Part shown: in pieces, positions 4,417 to 23,950 of the stretch
Layout of the letters: each line of letters begins with the position of its first letter
How positions within the stretch are numbered: the stretch's first letter is position 1
Assembly: GCA_900696515.1 (NCBI GenBank)
Contig: CAADGK010000073.1
Span: 1-38,177 of the forward strand
Reading direction: 5' to 3'
Source of the DNA: an uncultured Nitrosospira sp.
GTDB taxonomy: Bacteria > Nitrospirota > Nitrospiria > Nitrospirales > Nitrospiraceae
DNA: 38,177 nucleotides
Position numbers and translations under genes: made by a program
The notes under the pieces: generated by a model
What the model saw: only the letters and a program-made list of their open reading frames with translations
Told to the model about the DNA's origin: nothing
Database searches by the model: none

Positions 4417-4419
4417 GAG

Positions 4420-4570
4420 ACGTGAAGCGTGAAGGGTGAAGCGTGAAGGGTGCGCGAGGCACGCGCGACGAGCGAGAGGCGGGACTCGCAAAGATAAGGC
4501 ATCTTGCCCGTCTCGCCAGTCTCGCGTGAAGAACGAGATACGCTTCACGTTTCACGAACGACGCTTCACG
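4420..4570. repeat. Type B hairpin repeat before cheR
   Basis: GTGAAGCGTGAAG arms flank a core with GAGGCGGGACTCGC, ATCTTGCCCGTC and TCTCGCCAGTCTCGCG. The core recurs at about 7810-7872 and 9721-9790. The right arm is CGCTTCACGTTTCACG. It fills the gap between the receptor stop and cheR. Confidence 0.8.
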
Positions 4571-4603: not shown

Positions 4604-5422
4604 ATGGATATTGAAATCTCGACCGAGGAATTTCAACGGTTCCGGACGTTGATTTATGACGAGAGCGGGATTTCGCTCAATGATCAGAAGCAGGGCCTGG
4701 TGGCGTCCCGGCTGTCGAAGCGTCTGCGTGAGCTGGGGGTCAAGACCTTTTCCGATTACTACGACCGGTTGATGCATGACACGGGACGGGAAGAGTTCAC
4801 CCGGATGTTGGATCTGATCTCGACCAATAAGACGGACTTCTTCCGGGAGCCCAAACACTTCGACTATCTCCGTGAGGAAATTCTGCCGCAACTGGCCCGG
4901 GAGAAAAAGATCCGCATCTGGTCTTCGGCCAGTTCCACCGGGGAGGAGCCCTATACCATTGCCATGACGCTGTATGACGGCGTGGCGGATCCGGCCAATT
5001 GGGATTTCAAAATCCTGGCGTCCGATCTCTCGACGCGCGTGCTGGCCAAAGCAGCCGGCGGGGTCTATGACGCCGATCGTGTGGACGACATGCCGCCGGA
5101 CGTCGTCAGACGGCATTTTCTTCGCGGGAAAGGCGAGCACGAGGGCCGGCTCAAAGTCAAACCGCATCTGACCTCCATGGTGCGGTTTCAACGGATCAAC
5201 CTGATGGACGACCACTTTCCCATCAAGAGCCCGTTGGATCTCATCTTCTGCCGCAACGTCATGATCTATTTCGACCGGCCCACGCAGGAAACGCTGGTCA
5301 ACAAGTTCCATCGCTACTTGAAGCCGGGCGGGTATCTGTTTATCGGGCACTCCGAAAGCCTCCAATGGGTGACCCATCCCTTCAAGTTGATCGGCCCGAC
5401 GATGTATCGGAAGGAAGGGTAA
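4604..5422 (+). CDS. cheR: CheR, chemotaxis protein methyltransferase
   Basis: 272 residues, the normal length for CheR. It transfers methyl groups from S-adenosylmethionine to glutamates on chemoreceptors, working with CheB to set adaptation. The N-terminal helical domain carries NKTDFFREPKHF (residues 75-86), the CheR signature. The Rossmann-type SAM site shows IWSSASSTGEEPYTIA (105-120). A later motif, FCRNVMIYFD, is also typical of the family. The ATG is preceded by a weak GAGG. CheR of this kind docks on C-terminal receptor pentapeptides, and both receptors just upstream carry one. A type B hairpin lies before it and a type A arm follows its stop closely. The call is secure. Confidence 0.97.
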   Translation: MDIEISTEEFQRFRTLIYDESGISLNDQKQGLVASRLSKRLRELGVKTFSDYYDRLMHDTGREEFTRMLDLISTNKTDFFREPKHFDYLREEILPQLAREKKIRIWSSASSTGEEPYTIAMTLYDGVADPANWDFKILASDLSTRVLAKAAGGVYDADRVDDMPPDVVRRHFLRGKGEHEGRLKVKPHLTSMVRFQRINLMDDHFPIKSPLDLIFCRNVMIYFDRPTQETLVNKFHRYLKPGGYLFIGHSESLQWVTHPFKLIGPTMYRKEG

Positions 5423-5427
5423 ATCGT

Positions 5428-5508
5428 CAGGTTTCAAGTTTCAGGTTTCAGGTTTCAAGTTTCTGGTTTCAAGTTAAAAACCAGCTCAAAAAACATGGAA
5501 CTTGAAAC
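5428..5508. repeat. Type A repeat, left arm flanking a four-helix-bundle gene
   Basis: Several tandem TTTCAAG/TTTCAGG units from 5428 to 5475, then an AT-rich stretch and CTTGAAAC at 5501-5508. The arm pairs with the CTTGAAACCTGAAACATG arm at 5923-5952, on the other side of the small gene. Confidence 0.8.
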
Positions 5509-5516
5509 ACGATGGA

Positions 5517-5927
5517 ATGAAGGCAATGCCGACGTTCGAACGGTTTGAGGATATGGAGGTATGGCAGCGTGCTCGCGATCTATGCAGGGAGGTCTATCGC
5601 ATTTCAGGCAAGGGCTCGTTCGGGGCAGACTTCTGGCTACGCGATCAGATGCGCAGGGCAAGCGCCTCGATCATGTCGAACATTGCCGAGGGATTTGAGC
5701 GAAGTGGAAGCGGAGAGTTCATCCAATTTCTGGCAATCGCTAAGGGGTCAGCCGGTGAGCTGCGAAGTCAGCTCTATATCGCTCTCGATCAAAAATATAT
5801 GGAACAAGAGCACTTTCTCCACCTTGTTGGGTTGGCCGTCGATACGACACGGATGATAGCTGGACTCATGAAGTATTTGCGAACATCAGGGGTCAAGGGT
5901 ACGAATTACAAAACACGGCAATCTTGA
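5517..5927 (+). CDS. Four-helix-bundle protein (S23 / 23S rRNA intervening-sequence family)
   Basis: About 136 residues from the ATG at 5517; the ATG at 5526 is also possible. Motifs of the S23/IVP four-helix-bundle family are visible: FEDMEVWQRARDL, then DQMRRASASIMSNIAEGFER, then EFIQFLAIAKGSAGELRSQL. The family is known from ORFs inside intervening sequences of 23S rRNA. It is related to the Avd accessory protein of diversity-generating retroelements, which binds nucleic acid. Its role outside those settings is unknown. Here it interrupts the chemotaxis genes between cheR and cheD and lies between inverted arms of a type A repeat. Its stop codon (5925-5927) is inside the right arm. That placement suggests insertion as part of a repeat element rather than a chemotaxis role. 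The family call is firm. Confidence 0.88.
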   Translation: MKAMPTFERFEDMEVWQRARDLCREVYRISGKGSFGADFWLRDQMRRASASIMSNIAEGFERSGSGEFIQFLAIAKGSAGELRSQLYIALDQKYMEQEHFLHLVGLAVDTTRMIAGLMKYLRTSGVKGTNYKTRQS

Positions 5928-5952
5928 AACCTGAAACATGAAACCTGAAACC
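5923..5952. repeat. Type A repeat, right arm overlapping the cheD start
   Basis: Consecutive CTTGAAAC, CTGAAACATG and AAACCTGAAACC units. They are inverted relative to the arm at 5428-5475. The element supplies both the stop of the preceding gene and the first possible start of cheD at 5938. Confidence 0.8.
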
Positions 5953-6552
5953 GATCTTCAACAATTTTCGCACATCCGCCGGATGCGGGATCACCGCTTC
6001 CCGCATGAGATCGCGGCGATTCTTCCGGGGGAGTACTTCGTGAGCGTCGAACCGATGATCGTGTATACCGTGCTGGGGTCCTGTGTGTCGGCCTGTATCC
6101 GCGATCCGGTGAACGGGATCGGCGGGATGAATCACTTCATGCTGCCCCAGCCGAAGAATCCGGGCGCCGACTCCTGGGGGGAATCGACGCGCTACGGGTC
6201 CTATGCGATGGAATCGCTGATCAACGACATTCTCAAGCGGGGCGGGGTGAAGAGCCGGCTGGAAGTGAAATTGTTCGGCGCCGGGCGGATCTACGAAGGC
6301 AACATCGACGTGGGGGCAAAAAATGCCGAGTGGGTGCTGGAGTATGTCAGGACGGAAGGTCTGACCGCCTGCAAGACGGATCTCGGGGACGTATTGCCGA
6401 GAAAGCTGTATTATTTTACTGAGTCCGGGCGGGTGCTCATGAAGAAAATCGAACGGGTGAAGAACCAGACGATTCTCGAACGCGAACGGGAGTACGCGTC
6501 GAAACTGCACAGCGTGAAACCGGTCGAGACCGAGGATGTGACGCTCTTCTAA
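5938..6552 (+). CDS. cheD: CheD, chemoreceptor glutamine deamidase
   Basis: 204 residues from this start. CheD deamidates glutamines on chemoreceptors and in some species works with CheC. The catalytic Cys is in VLGSCVSAC (Cys49) and the catalytic His in GGMNHFMLP (His66). The conserved block KLFGAGRIYEGNIDVGAKNA also matches the family. The start is unusual: the ATG lies inside a type A repeat with no Shine-Dalgarno sequence, so residues 1-5 (MKPET) are repeat-encoded. The ATG at 5983 (MRDHRF) would give a protein starting closer to the conserved core, but it also lacks a clear ribosome site. The gene lies between the four-helix-bundle gene and cheB, in an adaptation set with cheR. Function secure, start uncertain. 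Confidence 0.95.
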   Translation: MKPETDLQQFSHIRRMRDHRFPHEIAAILPGEYFVSVEPMIVYTVLGSCVSACIRDPVNGIGGMNHFMLPQPKNPGADSWGESTRYGSYAMESLINDILKRGGVKSRLEVKLFGAGRIYEGNIDVGAKNAEWVLEYVRTEGLTACKTDLGDVLPRKLYYFTESGRVLMKKIERVKNQTILEREREYASKLHSVKPVETEDVTLF

Positions 6553-6561
6553 GGGATGGAA

Positions 6562-6630
6562 AGTTTCATGTTGCACGTTTCATGTTTCAAGTTGTCGGAA
6601 AACCTGAAACGTTAAACTTGAAACGTGAAA
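6562..6630. repeat. Type A hairpin repeat between cheD and cheB
   Basis: Left arm of TTTCATG/TTTCAAG units, loop with TTGTCGGAAAA (6592-6602), right arm of CCTGAAAC, CTTGAAACGTGAAA. It is a complete, empty hairpin. Confidence 0.8.
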
Positions 6631-6646: not shown

Positions 6647-7732
6647 ATGGCGAAGATACGCGTGCTGATCGTCGACGACTCGGCCTTGATGCGGCAGGTG
6701 CTGACGGCGCTTCTCGCCAAAGATCCGGAGATCGAGGTGATCGGATCCGCTCCCGATCCGTACATCGCCCGGGAAAAGATCAAGGCCTTGAATCCCGACG
6801 TGCTCACGCTCGACGTGGAGATGCCGAAAATGGACGGGCTCACCTTCCTGGAGAAGCTCATGCGCGGGCATCCCATGCCGGTGGTCATGGTGAGCTCGTT
6901 GACGGAAGCCGGTTGCGACACGACGCTGCGCGCGCTGGAACTGGGCGCGGTCGATTTCATCACCAAGCCCAAGATCGACCTGCGGGAAGGCATGGAGGAG
7001 ATCGCGCAGGACTTGATCGGCAAGGTGAAAGCGGCCGCTTGCGCCAAGATCAAGAGTTCCAAGTTTCAGGTTTCAGGTTCCAAGTCGAATCCGGAACTTG
7101 AAACGTGCAACGTGAAACCTGGAACTGGTTCGGGGGCGATGATCAAGACGACCGATACGATCATCGCGATCGGCGCCTCCACCGGAGGGACGGAGGCGGT
7201 CAAGGATGTCTTGCAGATGCTGCCGCCCAACACACCGCCGATTCTGGTGACCCAGCACATGCCGGAACGGTTCACGAAGACCTGGGCGGACCGGATGAAT
7301 GACCTCTGCCGCATTGCCGTCAAAGAAGCACAAGACGGCGACAGCGTGCTGCCGGGCCATGCCCTGGTGGCTCCCGGCGGGTACCATATGACCTTGGTGC
7401 GGAACGGCGCGCGGTATACTGTACAGATCAACCAGGATCCGCCGGTGAACCGGCACCGCCCCTCCGTGGATGTCACGTTTGCCTCGGTCGCCCGGTATGC
7501 CGGCGCCAATGCGGTCGGTGTGATCCTGACCGGGATGGGCGGCGACGGCGCCAAGGAAATGTTGACGATGAAACAGGCCGGCGCCTTTACCATCGCGCAG
7601 GATGAGGCGAGCTGTGTCGTGTTCGGCATGCCGAAAGAAGCCATCAAAATGGGCGGGGTGGATCAGGTGCTGCCGCTTCAGGACATTGCGGGCGCCATCC
7701 TGGCTCATGTGGGCTACTCAAAAGCCGCGTGA
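6647..7732 (+). CDS. cheB: CheB, receptor methylesterase with receiver domain
   Basis: 361 residues. The receiver domain spans residues 1-125: Asp10/Asp11, phospho-acceptor Asp56 in TLDVEMP, and Lys107. The C-terminal methylesterase domain (about 168-361) carries the triad Ser178 (GASTGG), His204 (VTQHMP) and Asp300 (GMGGDGA). It removes receptor methyl groups and deamidates glutamines when phosphorylated by CheA. AGAGGG before the ATG supports the start. The inter-domain linker is odd: residues 137-160 are a type A hairpin repeat (7055-7126) read in frame. Relative to E. coli CheB, the catalytic Ser is about 14 residues further along, so part of the linker is extra. cheA and cheW are not in the window. 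The call is secure. Confidence 0.98.
   Translation: MAKIRVLIVDDSALMRQVLTALLAKDPEIEVIGSAPDPYIAREKIKALNPDVLTLDVEMPKMDGLTFLEKLMRGHPMPVVMVSSLTEAGCDTTLRALELGAVDFITKPKIDLREGMEEIAQDLIGKVKAAACAKIKSSKFQVSGSKSNPELETCNVKPGTGSGAMIKTTDTIIAIGASTGGTEAVKDVLQMLPPNTPPILVTQHMPERFTKTWADRMNDLCRIAVKEAQDGDSVLPGHALVAPGGYHMTLVRNGARYTVQINQDPPVNRHRPSVDVTFASVARYAGANAVGVILTGMGGDGAKEMLTMKQAGAFTIAQDEASCVVFGMPKEAIKMGGVDQVLPLQDIAGAILAHVGYSKAA
7055..7126. repeat. Type A hairpin repeat inside cheB
   Basis: Left arm AGTTCCAAGTTTCAGG at 7055-7070 continues to 7084. The loop is near 7085-7093. The right arm begins at AACTTGAAACGTG and ends GTGAAACCTGGAACT at 7126. The arms are close to 31 bases each. The whole element stays in frame and has no stop codon. 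Confidence 0.85.
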
Positions 7733-7734
7733 TG

Positions 7735-7872
7735 AGACGTGAGGTGTGAAGCGGCAGGGGACGTGAAGCGTATCTCGTGAAGGGTGAAGCGTGAAGCGAG
7801 ACACGCGCGACAGGCGGGACTCGCGAGGATAGAACATGGTGCCGTCACGCTTTTCTCGCCGGTCTCGCGAGG
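7735..7872. repeat. Type B hairpin repeat after cheB
   Basis: GTGAAGCG-type left arms, then GGCGGGACTCGCGAGGATA at about 7813-7831 and TCTCGCCGGTCTCGCGAG at about 7854-7871. The core matches those at 4476-4525 and 9723-9785. Confidence 0.8.
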
Positions 7873-7889
7873 AAGGATCACCAATCACT

Positions 7890-7947
7890 TCACACAGACC
7901 AAACCGACGAGACGGACCAAACAGACCAAACAAACCCGATAGACCAG
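7890..7947. repeat. Type C repeat before the STAS gene
   Basis: Short repeated units AGACCAAAC, GACGAGACGGACC and AGACCAAACAAAC. The same units recur in the hairpin at 19158-19240. This copy directly abuts the STAS ribosome binding site. Confidence 0.65.
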
Positions 7948-8333: not shown

Positions 8334-8430
8334 AGTTTCAAGTGTCAGGTGTGAAGTTTCATGTTGTCGAAAACATGGAATCCGAAACCTGAAATTTGGA
8401 CTTGAAACCTGAAACATGAAACCTGAAACA
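8334..8430. repeat. Type A hairpin repeat overlapping the phosphatase start
   Basis: GTTTCAAGTGTCAGG left side, loop with TTGTCGAAAA at 8364-8373, then CCGAAACCTGAAAT and CTTGAAACCTGAAAC units. The final units hold the ATG at 8416. Confidence 0.8.
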
Positions 8431-9606: not shown

Positions 9607-9675
9607 GTTTCATGTTTGAAGTTTCAGGTTTCAGGTTTTCCGACAACATGAAACTCGAAACCTGAAACGTGAAAC
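9606..9675. repeat. Type A hairpin repeat after the phosphatase gene
   Basis: GTTTCATGTTTGAAGTTTC left arm, loop with TTTTCCGACAA (9636-9646, the reverse complement of the loop at 6592-6602), and CCTGAAACGTGAAAC right arm. Confidence 0.8.
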
Positions 9676-9680
9676 GGATC

Positions 9681-9795
9681 TCGTGAAGCGTGAAGTGTGA
9701 AGCGAGACAAGCGCGACGCGCGAGAGGCGGGACTCGCGAGGATAGAACATCTTGCCCGTCACGCTTATCTCGCCAGTCTCGCGAGTCTCGCACGG
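9681..9795. repeat. Type B hairpin repeat before the HPt gene
   Basis: GTGAAGCGTGAAG arm, GAGGCGGGACTCGCGAGG at about 9724-9741, CATCTTGCCCGTCACGC, then TCTCGCCAGTCTCGCGAG near 9768-9785. It follows directly after a type A element, so the gap holds two repeats in series. Confidence 0.8.
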
Positions 9796-10192: not shown

Positions 10193-11088
10193 ACGGGTCC
10201 GCTTCGGCTGAACAGCTCCTGATCATTGATCCCTGTGCGGAGACGCAAGCGCGGATCGCCCGCTATGCCGCAAATAGTGGATTTTCCGTGATAGCCGTGG
10301 CTGATCCCGCGGCGGCCCTGGTGAAGATTCAAGAGGCGGCTCCGGCTCTCGTGATCACCGACATGTTCCTTCCGGACGGCGCCGGGTTGGCATTGGCCAA
10401 GGAACTGAAGGCCCGGCATGAGCCCTGTCCGGTGATCGTCATGGCGAACCAGGCGCCGGAGCCGTTGATCGTTGACGCGTTGCGCGGCGGGGCCGTCGAC
10501 TACCTCCACAAGCCCGTTGCCGAGGACGAACTCATGTCGGTGCTGCAGCGTGTGCAGGACTTCCTGCCTTGTCATCCCATGGCGGTGCCCGGGGCCCGAC
10601 ACTTTTCCTGCGAACTGACCGTTGATTCCGATCCCGCGCACATTCCGGACATCATCTCCTGGCTTCTCAGAACGACGGCTTCCGCTGTGCCGTCCGCCAA
10701 GAGGATGCATATTCAGGGTGCGCTGCAAGAGTTGCTCTTCAATGCCGTGGAGCACGGGAATCTCGAGATTCAGGGGCAGGACAAACAGCAGGCCCTGGCG
10801 GAGGGCTGTTATGAGCAACTGGTGGCGGCACGATTGGCGCAGCCTCGTCTCAGCGAGCGCCGGGTGACGATCCATGTACGGCATGAGCGGAGCCGCAATT
10901 GTCTGGAGTACCGGATCACCGATGAAGGCCAGGGTTTTCCCTGGCGAACCGCGCTGGCGCGATCCCAAGAGGTGTTCGACTTCGAGGGCGCGAGCGGCCG
11001 GGGAATTTTTCTGACGAGAGCCTTCTTTCCGAATCTCACCTACAACGAGCAGGGGAACGAGGTCACGATCACGGTGCCGCTCGAATAG
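10189..11088 (+). CDS. Receiver domain fused to HATPase anti-sigma-type kinase (RsbW/SpoIIAB-like)
   Basis: 299 residues. The receiver domain (about 8-125) has phospho-acceptor Asp58 (VITDMFLPDGAG) and Lys108 (LHKPV). One of the usual paired N-terminal acids seems replaced (IIDPCAE). The C-terminal half is a GHKL ATPase: N-box ELLFNAVEHGN (Glu181, Asn185), G1 box DEGQGF (Asp245) and G2-like GRGIFLTR (270-277). No His-containing dimerisation domain is present, so it resembles serine kinases of the RsbW class rather than a histidine kinase. It would phosphorylate the STAS protein encoded upstream and oppose the PP2C phosphatase. It starts in an ATGA overlap with the HPt gene. The gene end faces gspK across a type A repeat. 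Domain calls are firm; substrate inferred. Confidence 0.92.
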   Translation: MNGSASAEQLLIIDPCAETQARIARYAANSGFSVIAVADPAAALVKIQEAAPALVITDMFLPDGAGLALAKELKARHEPCPVIVMANQAPEPLIVDALRGGAVDYLHKPVAEDELMSVLQRVQDFLPCHPMAVPGARHFSCELTVDSDPAHIPDIISWLLRTTASAVPSAKRMHIQGALQELLFNAVEHGNLEIQGQDKQQALAEGCYEQLVAARLAQPRLSERRVTIHVRHERSRNCLEYRITDEGQGFPWRTALARSQEVFDFEGASGRGIFLTRAFFPNLTYNEQGNEVTITVPLE

Positions 11089-11158
11089 TTTCAAGTTTCA
11101 GGTTGCAAGTTTCAAGTTTTGGGCTTCTTCTTCACCTGAAACCTGAAACCTTGAACCT
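11089..11158. repeat. Type A hairpin repeat between convergent genes
   Basis: TTTCAAGTTTCAGG units on the left and CCTGAAACCTGAAACC on the right, with a TTTTGGGCTTCTTC loop. It lies between two genes that end towards each other and could act as a transcription barrier for both strands. Confidence 0.8.
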
Positions 11159-11165
11159 GTCACTC

Positions 11166-14242: not shown

Positions 14243-14307
14243 AGTTTCATGTTTGACGTTTCAGGTTTCAAGTATTCCGACAACCTGAAACCTGAAACGT
14301 CAAACTC
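14243..14307. repeat. Type A hairpin repeat between gspN and gspL
   Basis: AGTTTCATGTTTGACGTTTC left arm, loop with ATTCCGACAA (14274-14283), CCTGAAACCTGAAACGTC right arm. Read on the minus strand, the loop core is in the same orientation as at 6592-6602. Confidence 0.85.
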
Positions 14308-16359: not shown

Positions 16360-17153
16360 CGCGCCGCCCGTGGGGCCGGAGGCCCTCCCTGCGCCGTTCC
16401 ACCGCCAGGCTGGACGCTCGCTTTCAAGAGGATTTTGACGCGATCCGGGATAATACGGTTCGGAGGCGGATCAAAGCGTTCATCGCTGACCCGGATGGCT
16501 CCGGTCAGAGAATCAACCGCCAGGCCTAACAGATTATTTCTGTTGTCCATGAGATACATGGTGACCGGTTCGATCCGCCCGTTGGGAAAGAACGTCACGC
16601 CGACTCGTCCCGACAGGCGTTTGTCCTGTCCGATGGAGATCTCGGTCAAGCGGATCGACTCCGGAAGCGGTCGCGGCAGTTTCCATGCGGGATCCAGCGG
16701 AAGGCGTTCTTCTTTTCCTTCCACCACCATCATCCAGTAGAGTCCCTGGTCCAGATCCAGGTAGAGCTTGAGCGGTGTTTGATCGGTAGACGCCTGGCCC
16801 TGGACGGTGCGAAGCACGCCGACCAGTTTTCTTCCGGTGGAGCGCAGGTCCTCCTCAAAACTGATGCGGGGTAAGACCACGGCCAGGACGCCGCCCAGCA
16901 GAAACAAGGCGATCAGCATTTCCAGAAGAGTAAAGCCGGCGGAAGAGCGTAAGGAGTGAAGGGTGAAGGGTGAAGGGGAATGGGGAATGGAGAATGGAGA
17001 GTGGGGAGTGGAGAGTTGAGAATGGAGAGTGGGGAAAGGAGAATGGATCAGGGACTGGTCGATAGTCCGGCGTGACAAGCGAGAAATGCGCAACTCGCGT
17101 GACGGACAAGTCCGGTCTCTGCCTGTCTCGCTTGTCCCGCCCATCCGGCTCAT
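16356..17153 (-). CDS. gspH: GspH, minor pseudopilin with a repeat-encoded leader
   Basis: The mature part begins FTLLEMLIALFLLGG after SSAG, with Glu at position 5. A ~170-residue body follows with RSTGRKLVGVLRTVQGQAS and LYLDLDQGLYW, typical of GspH. The start is a problem. There is no ATG, GTG or TTG within 30 codons of the cleavage site. The nearest ATGs are at 17144 and 17153, just after the gspG stop, which gives a leader of about 70 residues. Much of that leader (LIHSPFPTLHSQLSTPHSPF and onward) is translated from short tandem repeats. TTG codons nearer the site are alternatives, as are ATT codons within the repeat. The gene overlaps gspI by four bases. The product is sure; the start is not. 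Confidence 0.85.
   Translation of the reverse strand: MSRMGGTSETGRDRTCPSRELRISRLSRRTIDQSLIHSPFPTLHSQLSTPHSPFSIPHSPSPFTLHSLRSSAGFTLLEMLIALFLLGGVLAVVLPRISFEEDLRSTGRKLVGVLRTVQGQASTDQTPLKLYLDLDQGLYWMMVVEGKEERLPLDPAWKLPRPLPESIRLTEISIGQDKRLSGRVGVTFFPNGRIEPVTMYLMDNRNNLLGLAVDSLTGAIRVSDERFDPPPNRIIPDRVKILLKASVQPGGGTAQGGPPAPRAAR
16948..17152. repeat. Low-complexity repeat tract in the gspH leader region
   Basis: GGAGTGAAGGGTGAAGGG and GGAATGGAGAATGGAGAG units from about 16951 to 17045, then a type B-like part (GACAAGCGAGAAATGCGC and CTGTCTCGCTTGTCCCGC) to about 17152. It lies between gspG and the mature part of gspH and is open in the gspH frame. Confidence 0.7.
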
Positions 17154-19072: not shown

Positions 19073-19275
19073 GTGTGAGGGGTTATGCGTTGAAGAGTGA
19101 GAGGTCTGAGGTCAGATGCTTCTGCGTCATGCCTCCAACGTCCAATCTCACGCTGTCCCTGGTCGGACTCGTCTGTCTGGTCTCTCTCGTCTATCTTGTC
19201 GACCAAACAGACCAGATAGACGAGACTGACCAGAGAGACCAATACGCTTCACGTTTCACGAATGACGCTTCACGT
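19073..19275. repeat. Type B plus type C hairpins between gspE and gspF
   Basis: A type B-like element with GAGAGGTCTGAGG and GCCTCCAACGTCC lies at 19073-19152. A long type C inverted repeat follows at 19158-19240: GGTCTCTCTCGTCTATCTTG on the left against CAGATAGACGAGACTGACC and AGAGAGACC on the right. It closes with CGCTTCACGTTTCACG, a type B arm. Confidence 0.75.
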
Positions 19276-21061: not shown

Positions 21062-21208
21062 GTTCTGGATTGGGGGCGTGCTCTTGGGTCTCTCTCTTTC
21101 TCACGCAAAGATACTCTCCCTGATGACGGCCTGGCAAGGACATGGAGAAATTATTCCAGAAAATCGAGGTGTTAGACATTCCGTTTCTGAGGTGTGGTTG
21201 GTGAAGGC

Positions 21209-21300
21209 TCAAGTTTCAGGTTTCATGTTTCAGGGATTTAGGTATTGATCGGAAAATAAGAAATCCGCAACCTGAAACCTGAAACAACAAACTTGAAATT
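21209..21300. repeat. Type A hairpin repeat between gspC and gspE
   Basis: TCAAGTTTCAGGTTTCATG left arm, loop with TTGATCGGAAAA (21245-21256), CCTGAAACCTGAAAC and CTTGAAAT right arm. It stands where gspD is commonly found. Confidence 0.8.
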
Positions 21301-22397: not shown

Positions 22398-23414
22398 GTG
22401 AAAAAAGCATTGATCACCGGCATTACCGGTCAAGACGGGTCCTATCTGTCGGAATTTCTCCTCGGGCGAGGGTACGAAGTCTACGGCATTATCCGCCGCT
22501 CGAGCTCCTTTAATACGGGGCGTATCGATCCGATCTATGAGGATCCGCATGTGCCGCATCGCCGTCTCCATCTGGTCTACGGCGATCTGAACGACGCCAG
22601 CTCCCTGAACCGGATCTTGCGTACCGTCCAGCCGGATGAAATTTACAACCTGGGCGCCCAGAGTCACGTCCGGGTCAGCTTTGATATTCCGGAATATACG
22701 GGCGAGATCACGGGACTCGGCACGATTCGCTTACTCGAAGCCATTCGAGAGTCAGGGCTCAAGCCGAAATTCTACCAGGCCTCCTCCAGCGAGATGTTCG
22801 GCAAGGTGCTGGAGGTGCCGCAGAAGGAAACGACGCCGTTCTATCCCAGAAGTCCGTACGGCGCCGCAAAGGTCTACTCCTACTGGATCACCGTCAATTA
22901 CCGCGAGGCCTACAATCTCTTTGCGTGCAACGGCATTCTCTTCAATCACGAATCGCCGCGGCGCGGGGAAACCTTTGTCACGCGGAAGATCACCAAGGCG
23001 GCCGCCCGGATCAAGCTCGGCATCCAACAAGAGGTGTTTCTCGGTAATCTCGATGCGAAGCGAGACTGGGGCTATGCCGGGGACTATGTCGAGGCGATGT
23101 GGATGATGCTGCAAGCTCCGACTCCCGATGACTATGTCATTGCCACGGGGGAGACTCATACGGTCAAGGAAATGCTTGAACTGGCCTTTGATCGTCTGCA
23201 ACTGGATTGGAAGAAACACGTGAAGATCGATGCGACCTACTACCGCCCGACGGAAGTCGATCTCCTCATCGGGGACGCGAGCAAGGCGAAGACACAACTC
23301 GGCTGGCAGCCCAAAGTCGGATTTGAAGAATTAATCGCCATGATGGTGGATGCGGATTTGACTGCTGAGAAGGAACGGTTGGATGGGACCAGGAAGAGAG
23401 GGTTGGAGGTTTGA
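22398..23414 (+). CDS. gmd: GDP-mannose 4,6-dehydratase
   Basis: 338 residues with a GTG start; CAGGGAGA 8-15 bases before it supports this. It converts GDP-mannose to GDP-4-keto-6-deoxymannose, the first step to GDP-fucose and related sugars. The NADP-binding motif [10 protein letters not shown] is at 8-17. The active site shows SSSEMFG and YGAAK (SDR Tyr-x3-Lys), and [16 protein letters not shown] is a Gmd hallmark. The last residues (RKRGLEV) and the stop come from a repeat arm at 23397-23423, so the original C-terminus may have been altered. GDP-fucose synthase lies downstream, separated by a four-helix-bundle gene. The call is secure. Confidence 0.97.
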
Positions 23415-23423
23415 GGTTGCAGG
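23397..23423. repeat. Type B-like repeat, left arm flanking the second four-helix-bundle gene
   Basis: GGTTGGAGGTTTGAGGTTG at about 23401-23419. It pairs with CCTCAAACCTC and CAACCTCAAAC at 23920-23950. It holds the gmd stop (23412-23414) and the first possible start of the next gene. Confidence 0.75.
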
Positions 23424-23830
23424 AGAAAGAGGGGGCGTCAGTTCCAGGATACATCCTTCCGTTTGAAAAACTTGACGTATGGCAGGAGTCTGTTGATCTT
23501 GCGGATTTCGTCCTGGGGCTCCTGGCGCATGTACCTCAAGGTAGACATTTGCGTTTGATCTCTCAAATGGAAGGGGCGGTGACATCCGTTGCACAAAATA
23601 TCGCTGAAGGGAAAGGTCGCCAACACAGAAAAGAATTCCTGCAGTATCTGAGTATTGCCCAGGGATCTCTCTATGAAGCCGTTACATTAAACGAAGTATT
23701 TGGCAGGCGACTGATCTTTTCTGAAGTTGAGTCAGTGACTATTCGGCTCCGAGCCGAAACGCTTGATCGTAAATTGAATGGATTGATGAATTCCGTAAGA
23801 GGGAAAGGACGAAGGGAAGAAGACCGTTAG
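23411..23830 (+). CDS. Four-helix-bundle protein, second copy (S23 / IVP family)
   Basis: 139 residues from a TTG at 23411 that overlaps the gmd stop (TTGA); a TTG at 23417 is also possible and there is no early ATG. Family motifs are visible: [18 protein letters not shown], then [19 protein letters not shown], then [19 protein letters not shown]. It is clearly the same family as the gene at 5517-5927 but well diverged, so the two are not a recent duplication. Related proteins occur in 23S rRNA intervening sequences, and their cellular role is not established. Like the first copy, it lies between inverted repeat arms and interrupts a pathway gene pair (gmd and the fucose synthase gene). The family call is firm; the start is uncertain. 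Confidence 0.85.
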
Positions 23831-23860
23831 GGGGATTTTGAGGGCGTAACAAGGACGTGG

Positions 23861-23950
23861 GGGTGGAGGGTACATAGTTGGAGGAAACCACCTCGAACCT
23901 CCAACGTCTGTATCTCCAGCCTCAAACCTCTATCCTTCAACCTCAAACTA
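23861..23950. repeat. Type B-like repeat, right arm and local hairpin before the fucose synthase gene
   Basis: A perfect 8-base stem GTTGGAGG (23877-23884) and CCTCCAAC (23898-23905). It is followed by CCAGCCTCAAACCTC and CTTCAACCTCAAACTA, which pair with the arm at 23401-23419 beyond the small gene. Confidence 0.75.

Follow-up and report, generated by a model that had tools for sequence, protein, structure and literature searches.

The gap between cheR (4604-5422) and cheD (5938-6552) in the 38,177-nt stretch of DNA analysed here (the window) is filled by a gene of the S23 family (PF05635), by heptad arms on both sides of it and by a further, inner arm (Table 1). The arms are inverted tandem heptads, GTTTCAN on the left and NTGAAAC on the right, and are referred to as type A. 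An earlier note on this DNA had described an S23-family gene framed by inverted type A arms, with its stop codon inside the right arm, and both statements proved correct: the two arms are present, and the stop codon TGA (5925-5927) is made by the first heptad of the outer 3' arm. The start codon of cheD falls in the third heptad of the same arm, which also supplies the first cheD codons. The start of the S23 gene at 5526 was placed by conservation with relatives (MPTFERFED), an alternative ATG upstream at 5517 being possible. Added here to the earlier description are the inner right arm, a second S23 gene in the window (L008), and a total of nine S23 genes genome-wide.

Table 1. Coordinates of the S23 units and type A hairpins in the window.
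Feature	Position	Strand	Remarks
5' arm	5428..5471	+	about six tandem GTTTCAN heptads; in the fold pairs with both 3' arms
Inner 3' arm AAAACATGGAACTTGAAAC	5490..5508	+	closes a small hairpin 5' of the S23 gene
S23/IVP-family four-helix-bundle gene	5526..5927	+	PF05635, TIGR02436; stop within outer 3' arm
Outer 3' arm	5923..5951	+	four heptads: CTTGAAAC-CTGAAAC-ATGAAAC-CTGAAAC
Empty type A hairpin	6563..6630	.	loop TTGTCGGAAAA; cheD-cheB gap
Type A hairpin within cheB	7056..7125 (7054-7128 as folded)	.	in-frame coding sequence of the linker between the CheB domains
Empty type A hairpin	8335..8429	.	5' of and into the start of a SpoIIE-domain gene (ORF from 8416)
Empty type A hairpin	9607..9675	.	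loop TTTTCCGACAA
Empty type A hairpin	11088..11163	.	
Empty type A hairpin	14244..14305	.	loop TATTCCGACAA
Empty type A hairpin	21204..21299	.	
Second S23 unit of the window (L008)	23401..23948	+	5' arm GGTTGGAGGTTTGAGGTTGCAGG 23401-23423; S23 domain 23465-23782; 3' arm to 23948

Folded as RNA, the whole cheR-cheD element presents the gene as a loop (z -4.63 against 100 shuffles), the outer 5' arm pairing with the outer 3' arm and the inner 5' arm with the short inner arm. The intervening sequences (IVS) of 23S rRNA likewise form an inverted repeat whose loop carries a PF05635 gene, and the earlier note had proposed that the same architecture is used here as an intergenic element. This holds for the gene in a hairpin loop (fold z -4.6) and does not extend to the setting, as the gene lies between cheR and cheD, outside 23S rRNA. 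In contrast to the IVS, units of the present kind occupy gaps of protein operons, and their arms are tandem heptads with a different word for each lineage.

The five empty hairpins that had been placed at 6562, 8334, 9606, 11089 and 14243 are real: together with the hairpin within cheB and that at 21204-21299, they folded as RNA with z-scores between -3.2 and -8.7 relative to dinucleotide shuffles. Palindromes of the same kind as the gene-framing arms are also dispersed in the own genome of the window, where three consecutive GTTTCA heptads (at most one mismatch) gave 96 matches and the reversed pattern none. A pattern built from the loop TTTTCCGACAA between heptads gave 14 strand matches at nine places, of which the stronger strand may be either one, and its reversed control gave none. 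Arm pairs with long loops were rare in 1.48 Mb of DNA from the genus, window included; three had loops of 251-800 nt, all in the window and one of them the che-locus unit, which is too few to tell whether other cargo is carried.

Several further repeats were seen in the window. The arms of L008 (GGTTTGA / CCTCAAA) are unlike type A, and most of the nine PF05635 genes of the genome have inverted arms by eye, with differing repeated words. Nine-letter arrays, GACCAAACA (7903-7936) and GTCTGTCTG (19171-19200), are similar to the arms of another S23 gene of this genome (L005), and a long run of GGGGAAT / GGAGAGT heptads (16947-17058) resembles in make-up the arms of a third (L006). Heptads of a second type (type B, CGTGAAG / CTTCACG), the type which in relatives fills the cheR-cheD gap together with another S23 lineage, occur at 1445-1474, 4417-4453 and 7777-7805. 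In three gaps (4454-4525, 7776-7843 and 9702-9773), heptads adjoin copies of a related repeat, about 70 nt long.

The S23 protein and candidate partner enzymes

So far, S23/IVP proteins have mostly figured as hypothetical four-helix bundles or Avd relatives. The protein encoded in the cheR-cheD gap matched PF05635 (E 8e-34, 116.5 bits against a cut-off of 33.8) and TIGR02436 (E 2.7e-32, 111 bits against a cut-off of 24). PF05635 was the sole domain in the Pfam profile search of the framed gene, with no Y1/HUH transposase domain, and defence-system models gave no match. Residues without change among 43 relatives include N54, I55, E57 and G58. The monomer was predicted to be a four-helix bundle (pLDDT 90.6), and the model was nearest to 2gsc (TM 0.80) and 2rld (TM 0.72), both of which are structures with five chains. 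A pentamer is named in the title of the 2GSC paper as cited in PMC10053308, and by analogy with 2GSC the S23 protein is probably pentameric as well.

The model also resembled Avd of the Bordetella phage retroelement (4dwl; TM 0.71, Foldseek E 0.037), and structures of Avd and of the ribonucleoprotein of diversity-generating retroelements (DGRs) matched it at E 0.04-0.15. The similarity of fold is accompanied by a weak kinship in sequence (phrog_3206, E 4e-5), to be read as kinship and not as function. In a DGR-type retroelement, an S23 protein could act as the Avd for a reverse transcriptase encoded at another locus of the genome. Besides the kinship with Avd, RVT_1 matches in some S23-bearing relatives (for example G001, G016, G061 and G069; some relatives have both RVT_1 and Y1_Tnp matches) are in line with this. 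However, the own genome, with its nine S23 genes, has no RVT_1 match, and nor do six relatives (G003, G019, G024, G029, G064 and G076). On these grounds dependence on a reverse transcriptase was rejected, and a DGR-type explanation is highly improbable.

An analogy with REP/RAYT systems (REPtrons) had also been drawn in the earlier note. It is apt for the layout, in which dispersed short palindromes occur together with a few copies that frame one gene, and it breaks down at the enzyme, as the gene framed here encodes no Y1 transposase; the arms here are, moreover, tandem heptads. A strict version, in which the palindromes are mobilised by a Y1 (HUH) transposase, can draw on the shared layout and on the three Y1_Tnp matches of the own genome, which lie away from the framed gene and leave room for help in trans. 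It was rejected, and has practically no chance of being right, since the framed gene is a PF05635 gene without a Y1 domain and two S23-rich relatives, G003 (seven S23 genes) and G024 (ten), have no Y1_Tnp match. As these same two genomes have no RVT_1 match either, neither a Y1 enzyme nor a reverse transcriptase is required for the presence of S23 genes.

Heptad arms at S23 genes of other genomes

S23 loci were collected from four sources: nine from the own genome, 29 new ones from the genus, 29 new ones from the phylum, and 80 that ranked best among at least 575 confirmed relatives on named contigs, giving a first sample of 147 loci in which no identical S23 gene was counted twice. The genus source comprised 79 genomes, 59 of them with matches (0-10 copies each), and the phylum source 198 genomes, 108 with matches; the loci taken from both were the best-scoring ones, mostly one per genome. 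The 147 loci contain 156 S23 reading frames; the 144 with flanks of 250 nt or more and the 139 with flanks of 300 nt or more were used, and the rest left out. An array was called where, within 300 nt of the gene, 14 of 18 positions repeated at a lag of 7, 8 or 9 after removal of low-complexity runs, a rule which is blind below about 3.6 heptads.

A period of seven was prominent in these flanks. Among autocorrelation lags of 2-15, lag 7 was the best in 129 of 288 flanks, and the runner-up lag in 23. Periods of 7, 8 and 9 were found in 161, 22 and 7 cases, respectively, against 0, 4, 3 and 1 for periods of 5, 6, 10 and 11, and the best arms spanned four to six heptads in 144 of the 161.

Arrays of period 7-9 were present in 185 of 278 S23 flanks. 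They occurred on at least one side of 115 of the 139 genes (both sides in 70, one side in 45), leaving 24 with none, and for the own genome and genus taken together the counts were 25 of 36 on either side and 13 of 36 on both. For spaced control genes, with a gap of 60 nt or more both upstream and downstream and drawn from genus genomes only, the corresponding figures were 25 of 312 and 1 of 312. Random places gave arrays in 72 of 3080 flanks and 6 of 1540 pairs in genus genomes, and in 36 of 378 flanks and 3 of 189 pairs in the S23 loci themselves. Since spaced control genes are so rarely armed, the excess at S23 genes is not a general trait of spaced genes. The check proposed in the earlier note, whether S23 genes are enriched inside hairpins, was thus borne out, matched inverted arms being far commoner there than at control genes or places.

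The own genome alone is insufficient to show a general pattern, as the array rule found arrays on both sides of only two of its nine S23 genes, and a cruder test, in which the left flank was aligned to the complement of the right, found one. The cruder test placed 39 of 144 genes above the 99th percentile of mispaired flanks, a null that included related arms. Eight loci of S23 genes without an array under the rule were inspected by eye, and some had weaker arms that the rule had missed while others had none. At one locus (L407), the S23 gene lies between two tRNA-Met genes, without clear arms.

A second sample consisted of 55 S23 genes from five named genomes (reached via L144, L107, L118, L075 and L085), labelled as Bacteroidota, Verrucomicrobia, WOR-3, Acidobacteriota and Edwardsbacteria; six overlapped with the first sample, leaving 49 new genes. 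Of these, 41 had an array in either flank and 24 in both, and six of the eight with none were in the genome of L085. The period was equal on both sides in 22 of the 24 two-armed genes, and in 18 of these 22 the units agreed within one letter when inverted, compared with two in direct orientation.

Arms of the same gene match each other. In the first sample, unit length was equal on both sides of 69 of the 70 two-armed genes (seven letters in 63, eight in five and nine in one). In 44 of the 63 heptad pairs the left unit differed from the complement of the right by 0-1 letter, against two of 63 in direct orientation; the mean difference was 1.17 letters, compared with 3.12 for mispaired arms, and was reached in none of 2000 permutations. 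The six pairs with units of eight or nine letters fitted less well, being two or three letters apart. A core of RGT was present in 59 of 88 5' arms (opposite sense, 6 of 88); among 97 3' arms, 70 had it in the complement (opposite sense, 4). It was weaker in the second sample, where 11 of 33 5' arms contained it (opposite sense, 2 of 33).

While arms within a locus are complementary, the heptad word varies between loci, and it does so together with the protein. For the 109 genes with a heptad unit, the mean distance between units fell from 3.45 letters at 30-40% S23 identity to 2.76 at 50-60%, 2.26 at 60-70% and 1.15 above 70%. Between different phyla only, with phylum labels assigned by hand, and corrected for composition, unit distance and S23 identity were correlated with r -0.39 (0 of 1000 permutations as strong). 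After removal of 164 pairs with similar neighbouring genes (tblastx, 1e-4) r was -0.37 (0 of 1000), and as the correlation holds without homologous neighbours, arms and gene travel together to unrelated places. The type A repeat itself is therefore not the essence of the system; the heptad differs between S23 lineages, and the rule is an S23 gene plus its own heptad arms.

Similarity at the DNA level was examined for eight cross-phylum pairs (blastn, E 1e-3), six of which matched within the S23 units and arms only, and two also in neighbouring genes. Between L122 (Planctomycetota) and L094 (Desulfacinum), whose S23 proteins are 79% identical, the DNA could be aligned from arm to arm over 496 columns, and outside the unit, in about 6 kb of each, blastn gave no match. 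In a tree of S23 proteins with 80 rows, 41 changes of phylum label were counted for 18 labels, 37 of the 77 inner branches being weak. These results leave the conclusion that S23 genes and their cognate heptad arms form a single inherited, mobile unit well supported.

Variation at the che locus and arrays without S23 genes

A match to CheD was found in 66 of the 79 genus genomes searched, and 30 of the loci were examined at the cheR-cheD gap. Eighteen were empty, with the end of cheR only a few nucleotides (a gap of 1-5 nt) before cheD, seven, including the window, were filled by type A units, and five by type B units. The earlier note had asked whether orthologous gaps differ by the presence or absence of the unit, and they do. 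The type A loci have GTTTCA arms and, in five of them, S23 proteins with 59-76% identity to that of the window; one locus (L177) is without cheR. At the type B loci, the arms are CGTGAAG / CTTCACG and the S23 proteins are only 38-40% identical to the window protein. The first codons of cheD are written by the arm in most filled sites, as judged by eye. It had also been considered that the gene might be kept at this locus without any repeat; by eye, heptads are present in all 12 filled gaps, and the strict rule flags arms in six of them.

Neighbouring sites vary as well. The spoIIE-hpt gap measures 15 nt in G017 and in G015, which are without an S23 gene, compared with 211 nt including arms in the window, and it is also short in several S23-bearing relatives. 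The cheD-cheB gap varies less (63-64 against 94). The hairpin coding for the CheB linker is at the same place in many relatives with several heptad types, again by eye, which indicates a conserved site with a changing word.

Neither a recent jump nor a target-site duplication was identified. Among eight genomes with two to four S23 copies compared in each, near-identical twins were found only in G091, and there the likeness ran on into shared neighbouring repeats. The twin units (L284 and L285) are 95% identical over 532 bp and lie, by eye, beside spaced CRISPR-like repeats; their arms differ in heptads though the gene is nearly unchanged.

Heptad arrays are not confined to genomes with S23 genes. 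The first two S23-free genomes sampled had none, a result that a larger sample did not uphold, as ten arrays were found in 514 kb of S23-free genomes, and one genome, G075, had five in 40 kb. The idea that arrays occur only where S23 genes do was accordingly rejected. Across 31 genomes sampled at 10-200 kb each, array density was not significantly correlated with the number of S23 genes (Spearman 0.20, p 0.28). Of the 33 arrays from genomes with four or more S23 genes, 27 came from G003, the most heavily sampled genome, and some of these 27 may be coding repeats.

Such arrays raise the question of whether slippage of the polymerase and template switches at hairpins create the arms locally, S23 genes being passengers that happen to persist in noncoding gaps of this kind. 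The existence of arrays without S23 genes, the faster change of arm heptads than of the gene in the G091 twins, and the switch of heptad type at one site in the CheB linker are all consistent with such expansion. It fails, however, on co-inheritance, as locus-matched arms track the S23 lineage at unrelated sites, and only 1 of 312 spaced control genes was two-armed. As an account of the units it is very unlikely, and it could survive only as a mode of arm turnover.

A different explanation keeps the link between heptad and protein and does without a mobile element: the S23 protein may bind the arms of its own message, in the manner of TRAP, with the units spreading only by ordinary horizontal transfer and the empty hairpins serving as its regulatory sites. 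Heptad and protein lineages are indeed linked, the start and stop codons are flanked by arms, and hairpins cluster inside the che operon. The protein has also been under selection, judging by dN/dS values of 0.05-0.25 among the type A copies (Nei-Gojobori, with synonymous sites partly saturated and L177 aligned in part), which point to purifying selection; two of the seven type A genes at the gap have in-frame stops, one of them also a deletion. Regulation in cis does not readily account for loci of different phyla that are alike within the unit only, for presence or absence at a gap of 1-5 nt, for hairpins within the CheB coding sequence, or for arrays in S23-free genomes, and this explanation is considered unlikely.

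The proposed element and heptad repeats at large

The explanation that is judged probable is that the che-locus unit represents one insertion of a mobile element, consisting of inverted heptad arms with an S23/IVP/Avd-like gene in the loop. The observations behind it are the architecture of the unit and the excess of arms, the complementarity of the arms, the co-inheritance of protein and word, presence and absence in the orthologous gap, and cross-phylum DNA similarity limited to the unit. The second sample, the arms at plasmid loci and the purifying selection on the type A copies also speak for it. Weighing against it are the failure to find a recent jump or target-site duplication, the arrays in S23-free genomes, the S23 genes without an array, the weaker RGT core of the second sample, the filled cheR-cheD gaps that the rule does not flag, the stops in two type A genes and the poor resolution of the S23 tree.

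How such an element moves can be pictured as follows. RGTNNNN heptads would often make up the 5' arm and their complement the 3' arm, the loop between them carrying the gene. We infer that the S23 protein binds the heptads, and the putative pentamer may do so on the hairpin as RNA or as single-stranded DNA, with about one heptad per subunit. The empty hairpins would be gene-less, non-autonomous copies that probably depend on protein supplied in trans. As the element showed no catalytic domain, cutting and joining are ascribed to the host, whose replication or repair enzymes may perform the insertion. Since stop and start codons can be provided by the arms, insertion would be tolerated in protein linkers and where one operon gene stops and the next starts.

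If true, this would mean that a widespread class of elements moves without an evident encoded catalytic enzyme, and that it rewrites gene starts and protein linkers upon landing; an origin would also be suggested for the Avd protein of diversity-generating retroelements. The results suggest that an overlooked kind of mobile element lies behind heptad repeats that have been puzzling.

In cyanobacteria, heptanucleotide repeats are known as STRR, and repeats of this kind are likewise tandem 7-mers that are mostly intergenic. Heptanucleotide repeats have been reported piecemeal, without an agent, in cyanobacteria, Xanthomonas, Beggiatoaceae and Geobacter, and the pairing described here gives both the repeats and the S23 proteins a partner. 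The heptad of Beggiatoaceae is TAACTGA (PMC4679880), those of Xanthomonas and Nostoc are GGGAATC and GGGGA(T/C)T (PMC4692102), and the class 3 repeat of Geobacter metallireducens, MTYCTGA, was drawn as looped structures (PMC2700814). Inverted heptad pairs were counted in Xanthomonas, with 70 cases in Xcc and 75 in Xac, and the same paper states that the heptads are generally not found with mobile elements (PMC4692102). Text searches matched neither S23 nor four-helix in PMC4679880 and PMC4692102, and did not match four-helix in PMC2700814. No link between heptad repeats and S23, PF05635 or TIGR02436 was recognised in the one open library searched.

A far-reaching generalization is possible but doubtful, and is put forward tentatively: bacterial heptanucleotide repeats may mostly be the arms, or remains of arms, of one mobile class that crosses phyla, in which a pentameric four-helix bundle would read a heptad with an RGT core, one per subunit, in a single-stranded hairpin, its specificity diverging with the word; Avd and the rRNA IVS would then be offshoots.

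S23 genes are also carried by plasmids. Eight of 24 plasmid hits were examined, seven from cyanobacteria and one from Riemerella, and arms were seen by eye at all eight and by the array rule at seven. On a plasmid of Nostoc edaphicum, an S23 gene flanked by AGGGAGT heptads separates two ribonucleotide reductase subunit genes. At another of the loci, on a Pseudanabaena plasmid (L277), the S23 gene has cas6 and cas4 as its neighbours, and upstream of it the heptad AAAAGCT is repeated more than ten times, almost perfectly.
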